Positions 62,888 through 64,000 of a stretch of DNA of 64,000 nt are shown piece by piece. Positions within the stretch are counted from its first letter, which is position 1. The number at the start of each line of letters is the position of its first letter. The notes under the pieces were generated by a model. It was not told the origin of the DNA and did no database searches. It was given only the letters and a program-made list of their open reading frames with translations. Position numbers and translations under genes: made by a program. The stretch comes from Cohnella sp. OV330 (GTDB lineage Bacteria > Bacillota > Bacilli > Paenibacillales > Paenibacillaceae), in assembly GCF_900112065.1 (NCBI RefSeq), contig NZ_FOKE01000011.1:213219-277218 (forward strand). Reading direction: 5' to 3'.

Positions 62888-62968
62888 CTTCGGTCCCCTC
62901 CTGCGAGTGACGACTTGAACGGCGTTAACCGCCGGGTATTGCGTGCTGTGCTGACTTAAGCGACTTCC

Positions 62969-63253
62969 TTAAGCGACATCGCGTACGACGATGTGACGAA
63001 TGACTTCGTCGGTGATCTTGAGTACGCGTTCCAGTTCGGTGACCACAGCCGGCTCGGCCGTGAAGTGAACCAGCACATACGTCCCGTCGCGGTGCTTGTT
63101 GATCTCGTAAGCGAGGCGCTTCTTGCCTTGTACCTCATGCTTCGTGAGCTCGCCGCCGTTCGCGATGATGCCCTGGAATTTCTCCGTGACAGCTTGAACG
63201 GACTCTTGGTCCGCGTCCGGACGAATGATGTACATCAACTCGTAGTTGCGCAT
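62969..63253 (-). CDS. rpsF: Ribosomal protein bS6
   Basis: 94 aa. MRNYELMYIIRPDADQESVQ and GKKRLAYEINKHRDGTYVLV are classic S6. AAAAGGAGG before the ATG. First gene of the operon; I did not recognise the S6:S18-binding mRNA motif in the short region upstream. Confidence 0.97.
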   Translation of the reverse strand: MRNYELMYIIRPDADQESVQAVTEKFQGIIANGGELTKHEVQGKKRLAYEINKHRDGTYVLVHFTAEPAVVTELERVLKITDEVIRHIVVRDVA

Positions 63254-63425
63254 CTTCGTTACCTCCTTTTGGTCTTTGGCCCCTCATTATTTATACCATG
63301 GAACCTGTCCACGGCTGAGGAGCAAGGAGTATGCCTTTTTATCGCATACCTGAATACTTTATCACATTGGCCCGCATACCGCAAGGTTTTTCCCGCAACA
63401 CTAAAGCCGGGAGGTGATCATCAAA

Positions 63426-63611
63426 ATGGGCGAACAAACGCAATTCGAGCCGGGCGATCGCGCGCCGAACAACGGTCATTACATGGAAGTGAGCGAGGAT
63501 GCTTTTCACATGAACATCGAGGATCCGAAACATGTCACGCTGGAGAAAGGCGAGCGGTTCCCGGAGACGACGAATCACAATCGCAAGTGGAAAAAGGTGA
63601 AACAATTTTAA
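63426..63611 (+). CDS. yjzC: YjzC family protein
   Basis: 61 aa with the family signature APNNGHYMEV and the closing KGERFPETTNHNRKWKKVK. The ATG at 63426 (MGEQTQFEPG) is preceded by GGGAGGTGATC at good spacing; a short upstream in-frame start at 63414 is not used. Small Firmicute protein of unknown function. Divergent from rpsF. Confidence 0.88.
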   Translation: MGEQTQFEPGDRAPNNGHYMEVSEDAFHMNIEDPKHVTLEKGERFPETTNHNRKWKKVKQF

Positions 63612-63623
63612 ACGGCGCGTATA

Positions 63624-63652
63624 TTGCCCCCCGTAGGCGGACATTCTAATTA
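63624..63652 (+). promoter_or_regulatory. Candidate promoter of the right-end RNA
   Basis: TTGCCC (63624), 17-bp spacer, TAATTA (63647); a weak match, but positioned 7 bp before the structured region and just after yjzC. Confidence 0.4.
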
Positions 63653-63658
63653 CCGGCG

Positions 63659-63901
63659 ACGAACAGAGAGGTGTTGGTTCCGTTGAACCTTTGCAGGCAA
63701 CAACCCGCAGGAGGAACGTCGAAGACGGAGTAGGAAGCGAGGGGTTGTGTCGCAGACATGGTCTTGCAATACACGTTATCGCGTTAGCGAGCCTTCAAGT
63801 AGCCGAAGCGCCGGGATGAACCGGCAACGTCACGTACGACATGGAAGTCCAGCTTCAACTAACGTCGCCCGGAGGACCCCGCAAGGGGTCTTTCGTCATT
63901 T
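63659..63901 (+). ncRNA. Candidate structured non-coding RNA, ~240 nt
   Basis: No ORF with a ribosome binding site. The stretch has several tight hairpins in series: GGTTC CGTT GAACC (63680 region), CGTC GAA GACG (63718 region), CGCGTTAGCG-type pairing, and GCCGG GATGAA CCGGC (63810-63826). It ends in a rho-independent terminator. Not recognised as tmRNA, RNase P RNA, 6S RNA, SRP RNA or a common riboswitch by motif. No downstream gene lies within the window, so a cis role cannot be judged. Confidence 0.55.
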
Positions 63902-63902
63902 T
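63873..63902 (+). terminator. Terminator closing the right-end RNA
   Basis: ACCCC GCAA GGGGT hairpin with a tetraloop, followed by CTTTCGTCATTTT. Confidence 0.8.
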
Positions 63903-64000
63903 AGGCGCTTGTCGCCGTCCCTCTGGCGGTTCGTAGCGCCGGTCTATCCAACAACCTTCGCCAGCTCGGTCTGTTCCTCCGCCCTGTCACTTGCGTGACC
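63903..64000. other. Right edge, no feature recognised
   Basis: Ninety-eight bases in which no frame, RNA or repeat could be supported. Confidence 0.4.

Follow-up and report, generated by a model that had tools for sequence, protein, structure and literature searches.

The segment from 63654 to 63895 on the forward strand of the window (the whole 64,000-nt stretch of DNA analysed here) is confirmed as an independent structured RNA gene with its own predicted promoter and terminator. The original prediction of an unclassified structured RNA of about 240 nt with these two elements is borne out by covariation across relatives and by the lack of an Rfam match at E≤10; its start at 63659 falls about 5 nt inside the closing stem P1. 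The predicted transcript has a length of about 240–245 nt. The RNA gene follows yjzC (63426–63611; Pfam PF14168, E = 1.2e-25), and the next recognised gene on its 3' side in this genome is a convergent tRNA-Ser gene. The identity of the RNA is well supported. As for its mechanism, we infer, and lean with some reservation towards, a forespore-specific structured RNA that would engage ribosomes via a mini-ORF and affect spore properties.

P1 pairs the inferred 5' end of the RNA (CGGCGACG, 63654–63661, forward strand) with a stretch abutting the terminator (CGTCGCC, 63863–63869, forward strand). It was analysed in alignment A2, which holds 52 sequences. From 110 full-length, non-redundant RNAs of ordinary length every second one was taken (55), and L015, L208 and L212 were then removed by hand. 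Among these 52 divergent sequences the seven pairs of P1 are 97.8% standard and show 61 two-sided changes, compared with 18.1 ± 4.0 after shuffling (none of 500 as high), and the covariation score is 0.507 versus at most 0.128 for slid partners, a control that limits but does not remove the bias towards P1 from setting the A2 sequence ends by a search for the P1 helix. The number of pairs with two-sided change and the number of further pair types were both within the shuffle range for P1. The covariation that had been suggested as a check among relatives is thus found in this stem. RNAalifold, unprompted, returned P1, a small hairpin at the start codon discussed below, and the terminator. The predicted GCAA-loop terminator is located at 63870–63895 (forward strand), has 11 pairs, was found by both a terminator scan and RNAalifold, and its stem likewise carries two-sided changes. 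The interior of the RNA is highly variable between genera. A further hairpin, GTGT..GCAGAC ATG GTCTTGC..ACAC (63747–63774, forward strand), was read by eye with its pairs uncounted; RNAalifold did not predict it from A2.

None of 200 dinucleotide shuffles folds as stably as the forward strand (z = −2.69), but the reverse strand comes close to it (z = −2.46, 4 of 200 shuffles as stable), and the terminator scan gave one site compared with 1.0 in shuffles. Fold energy and consensus scans alone therefore prove little. A chance structure is ruled out by the covariation of P1, and the RNA is accepted as real because its conservation is decisive.

By blastn, matches were found in 35 of 60 genomes, namely the window's own and 34 of 36 others of its genus, some of these same-genus matches spanning the terminator or a paralogue only; none of the 23 genomes of other families matched. 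The core GAGAGGTGTGGTTCCNTTG occurs in at least 120 stretches of named genomes, and among the 80 matches listed 78 are from Paenibacillus or Cohnella, one from a Bacillus sp. and one from Natronomonas. The last (L054) lacks a promoter and was rejected as a chance match. In its exact form the core is present in 227 of 295 genomes of the family, the window's own genome with its longer form not being one of these 227; the reversed core pattern, used as a control in the family genomes, was absent among the matches listed. A model of promoter and 5' part built from sequence only (R1) recovered both same-genus genomes missed by blastn and matched 27 of 36 chosen genomes (all but one of this set without the exact core), 266 of 296 genomes of the order, representing 34 of 48 genera, and 28 of 299 genomes of the class. 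Of these 28, 25 belong to the window's own family and three to family f58, where, as judged by eye, promoter, closing stem and terminator are all present in L249 and L252, which look like clear homologues, and L251 has both modules described below and the terminator with a weaker promoter and stem. A fourth f58 match, L250, was by eye a different gene that looks coding. On the minus strand of this locus (G662:C12) an ORF of 64 residues, translated by hand and without Pfam match, follows a sigma-G-type promoter and GAGAGGGGATGGTTCCGTTGAACG; it is apparently a coding gene with a start region similar to module M1.

For all site counts L032–L043 (most of which duplicate other loci, the site of L037 being otherwise unrepresented), L054, near-identical sites and sites too near the end of a locus were left out, which leaves 145 sites for the promoter count and 191 for the ORF set, 190 of them with a P1 helix. 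No match over the RNA was obtained with Rfam 15 at gathering scores in a search of the whole window, and none at E≤10 in a search of 63300–64000; the homologous RNAs gave none in 16 loci at gathering scores and none in 5 loci at E≤1. A known Rfam RNA is ruled out by these empty searches, and the failure to match the RNA to known ones in the original prediction holds even at E≤10. A literature search on noncoding or forespore RNA in Paenibacillus, S357 and Bvs196, with most subscription journals outside its scope, yielded no description of this RNA.

The surroundings of the gene vary. By simple tests, 62 of 183 sites are followed by a convergent tRNA-Ser gene and 22 are preceded by a yjzC-like frame. 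By eye, the upstream frame reads as rpsF in L055 and L073 and as YjzC in L062 and L068; on the downstream side L055, L068 and L096 have a DUF951 frame, Pfam having been run on the DUF951 of L055 and the YjzC of the window only. A tRNA is near the RNA in L029, L055, L068, L096 and L163, and copies with other neighbours are present in L031 and L067. Tandem or dispersed copies occur, with up to five R1 matches per genome. Every tandem copy in L064, L074 and L080 is preceded by a strict sigma-G-type promoter, and those in L081 by a looser one; about 4.3 kb separate a tandem pair of the RNA from a c-di-GMP-I riboswitch at 1017–1107 of L081. A second, paralogous RNA type occurs at other loci (L033–L038) in some genomes of the window's genus, with mini-ORFs such as MDHLVQGLQEELN (L026).

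Upstream of P1 a −35 element GTATA (63619–63623) and a −10 element CATTCTA (63642–63648) on the forward strand form the promoter GTATA-N18-CATTCTA (63619–63648). A first alignment shows GNATA, 17–18 nt and CANNNTA directly 5' of the closing stem, and the −10 element is also seen in alignment A1 (64 of 120 diverse sites). The strict pattern GNATR-N17/18-CANNNTA, the consensus of forespore sigma-G, was set down after inspection of the sites and fits 126 of 145 non-duplicate homologous sites versus 59 of 7,250 control windows; a looser form fits 142 of 145 versus 147 of 7,250. Controls were random 75-nt windows from the same loci. SASP genes are classical sigma-G targets, and a similar layout is seen at some of those in the same genome: in a scan that kept the best site of each gene and had no control, two of six (L195, L198) fit the strict pattern, L194 and L196 are one base off, and L197 and L199 do not fit. 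Hence, as judged by its sequence pattern, the promoter is of the forespore sigma-G type. The only sigma-70-like match in 62900–64000 (63597–63625) is at chance level (1 found, 0.6 expected), and a housekeeping promoter was rejected; the promoter of the original prediction is present, though as a sigma-G-type and not a housekeeping element.

A link to sporulation is also seen in the distribution. None of 14 listed genomes of genus g24 has an R1 match, and none of these genomes (about 99–100% complete) has a SASP gene, an absence that counts as one loss event and not as 14. The other 23 genomes of the SASP search each have at least two SASP genes. Since R1 matches are absent from at least 10 of these 23, the rule is one-way (no SASP, no RNA), and the RNA has therefore either diverged or become dispensable there. 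Genus g24, which lies inside a spore-forming family, is probably asporogenous.

Two modules are conserved within the RNA. Module M1 (GAGAGGTGTTGGTTCCGTTG, 63666–63685, forward strand) combines an SD-like GAGGTG with a TTG start and is one T longer than the usual core, so that in the window TTG follows after 9 nt instead of the 8 nt of the invariant core. Module M2 (GCGAGGGGTTGTGTCGCAGAC, 63737–63757, forward strand) contains an SD-like purine run, and a second short ORF could start at GTG 63747. The statement that there is no ORF with a ribosome-binding site proved wrong: GAGAGGTG-N9-TTG opens a mini-ORF of 16 codons plus stop (MNLCRQQPAGGTSKTE, 63683–63733, forward strand) whose length is conserved. 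A ribosome-binding site, a start codon and a bounded ORF, three features of a protein gene, are thus present.

The length of the mini-ORF is 8–22 codons in 92% of 91 non-redundant clusters, compared with 38% in shuffles (0 of 300 sets as high), with the clusters uncorrected for shared ancestry. No cluster has fewer than 8 codons (26% of shuffles) or more than 34 (20%), and the +1 and +2 frames, with 33% and 43% in the 8–22 range, resemble shuffles. Amino-acid conservation was not seen in codon-position and indel tests on 79 nearest pairs: substitutions on codon positions 1/2/3 number 106/114/123, and single-base events make up 24 of the 36 indels. A conserved peptide was rejected on these flat codon positions and frame-breaking indels. 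The unconstrained peptide had at first led to a reading of the RNA as purely noncoding, of which the part concerning translation was reversed by the length test. Since length is kept and sequence is free, translation with a stop near codon 16 seems to be selected, and the amino-acid sequence not. From the GTG of M2, ORFs of 9–24 codons were found in 64% of 77 clusters versus 40% in shuffles (0 of 300 sets); in the window this second ORF is open past the terminator. In 69 of 75 clusters the stop codon of the first ORF begins 12–42 nt upstream of the WTG of M2, and in the other 6 it follows that WTG. Of 190 RNAs, 151 have their best anti-SD site in M1, 25 have it in M2 and 14 outside both modules. 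The anti-SD energy of −12.4 is only mildly better than the −11.0 of shuffles, of which 24.5% are as good, and the SD-like stretch is as open as the rest of the RNA (0.38 versus 0.376). As a stand-alone argument, anti-SD binding is weak.

According to the reading we prefer, sigma-G RNA polymerase would synthesize the transcript of about 245 nt in the forespore, as its promoter suggests, and P1 closes the RNA against the terminator, as covariation shows. The ribosome-binding site and UUG near the 5' end would start a mini-ORF of about 16 codons, kept in length and free in sequence. Its stop is followed by M2, a second SD-like module, in some relatives perhaps with a coupled second mini-ORF. The RNA would then work by engagement of ribosomes, i.e. 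by loading, terminating and perhaps re-initiating, and not by a conserved peptide. By analogy with its probable Bacillus relative Bvs196/S357 and spore resistance, it may tune translation or spore composition during the onset of forespore dormancy. Against this reading speak the ordinary strength and openness of the SD-like stretch, the SASP-bearing genomes without R1 match and the second ORF that stays open in the window RNA.

A purely base-pairing forespore sRNA, with purine-rich GAGAGG and GGAGGG pairing with forespore mRNAs or a pyrimidine-rich sRNA and with an incidental ORF, is conceivable but rather unlikely. Bvs196, for instance, is reported in PMC9147052 to bind spo0A and sspN-tlp mRNA in vitro. 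In A1, moreover, the sequence of M1 is kept beyond SD and start codon, and all 191 sites have TTG, never AUG or GUG, most of them having been collected with a pattern that contains TTG. This invariance counts against a translated ORF because a plain start codon would not need it. Base pairing, however, leaves the length constraint on the mini-ORF without a reason. We regard it as unlikely that the transcript is an mRNA of the usual sigma-G kind, encoding a fast-evolving acidic micropeptide and stabilised by a structured 3' part. Such an mRNA would agree with the ribosome-binding site, TTG and kept length, with L250, where a similar start region precedes a longer ORF, and with an acidic bias of the peptides relative to shuffles (D/E 13.8% versus 8.9%, K/R 10.5% versus 16.3%), uncorrected for shared ancestry; yet the flat codon-position profile and the frame-breaking 1-nt indels argue against it, as does the conservation of P1 and M2 outside the ORF. 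A cis-regulatory leader or attenuator, which a short leader ORF followed by a terminator resembles, is highly improbable, and like a riboswitch it is rejected because the next recognised downstream gene is convergent; copies with other neighbours (L031, L067) also speak against it.

A length-conserved, sequence-free reading frame inside a structured RNA is unusual. The frame poses a sharp question, namely whether the spore needs the RNA, the peptide or translation itself. The RNA, conserved across most of an order of spore-forming bacteria, absent from a SASP-less genus and without Rfam match, could be deleted in cultured spore formers.

CsfG, a Bacillus forespore sRNA at ylbG-ylbH, resembles the window RNA in a sigma-G-type promoter, found in L304 and L306, but it is pyrimidine-rich and the window RNA is located elsewhere than at ylbG-ylbH. 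It is under sigma-F/G control as quoted in PMC9147052. Its pairing with GAGAGG of the window RNA would be pure speculation. A blastn search of CsfG from L304 and L306 against the window RNA and 191 homologous sites gave nothing at E≤1. In L306 the Rfam entry RF00516, 'ylbH leader', matches 1766–1886 on the strand opposite to the CsfG-like sRNA, whose sigma-G-type promoter lies at about 1949 on the minus strand; the Rfam entry may therefore represent the CsfG antisense strand.

Among known RNAs, a Bacillus forespore sRNA of the hit-ecsA locus, Bvs196/S357 (ncr1670), comes closest. S357 of B. subtilis has a homologue in B. velezensis, Bvs196, which PMC9147052 describes as a 294-nt RNA at hit-ecsA under sigma-F/G control and expressed only in the forespore; spores of the Bvs196 deletion strain are less resistant to heat and UV and more resistant to formaldehyde. 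PMC4410918 mentions S357 as affected by loss of Hfq in an earlier study. Common to both RNAs are a sigma-G-type promoter (recognised by its pattern in the window) and an own terminator. A module of Bvs196/S357, GAGGTGTNTGTYAAAGAC, resembles M2; loci of the Bvs196/S357 type in L291, L292 and L294 also have an M1-like GGGGATGGTNNNNTTGRAC. In contrast to the location at hit-ecsA and the repeated modules of Bvs196/S357, the window RNA lies between yjzC and tRNA-Ser and consists of one M1–M2 unit.

None of 30 HIT loci from the class, among them that of the window's own genome (L278), is matched by R1 at E≤5. A sigma-G promoter scan of HIT loci gave eight matches, three of which (L269, L270, L271) are followed by copies of the M2-like ATGAGGTGTNTGTYAAAGACA or close forms. 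A motif-pattern search matched 14 of 289 genomes of the class, L283 and L296 being clearly non-members. Among six pattern loci, five lie between a HIT frame and an EcsA-like ABC ATPase, and next to L292 the ATPase only is seen, with Pfam run on one HIT frame and one EcsA-like ATPase. Over nine RNAs of this kind, six of them chosen by motif, the M2 PSSM from Paenibacillales scored a sum of 70.6 versus 5.1 ± 10.0 (0 of 1000 shuffle sets). The remaining three, picked from the eight promoter matches (L287, L289, L291), scored 2.8, 13.7 and 7.6, with 20, 0 and 3 of 100 shuffles as good. M1 scored above shuffles only in L291–L294, and not in L284–L287 (genus g67).

It is likely that the window RNA and Bvs196/S357 are of common origin, and the window RNA is not filed as a Bvs196 member. 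The forespore RNAs that have been studied are few, and their mode of action is poorly understood, as stated in PMC9147052. Tentatively, S357 and the Paenibacillales branch might belong to a Bacilli-wide class of forespore RNAs with two ribosome-engaging modules and mini-ORFs translated for the sake of translation itself. In that case these RNAs could keep ribosomes back or retune them at the onset of spore dormancy.
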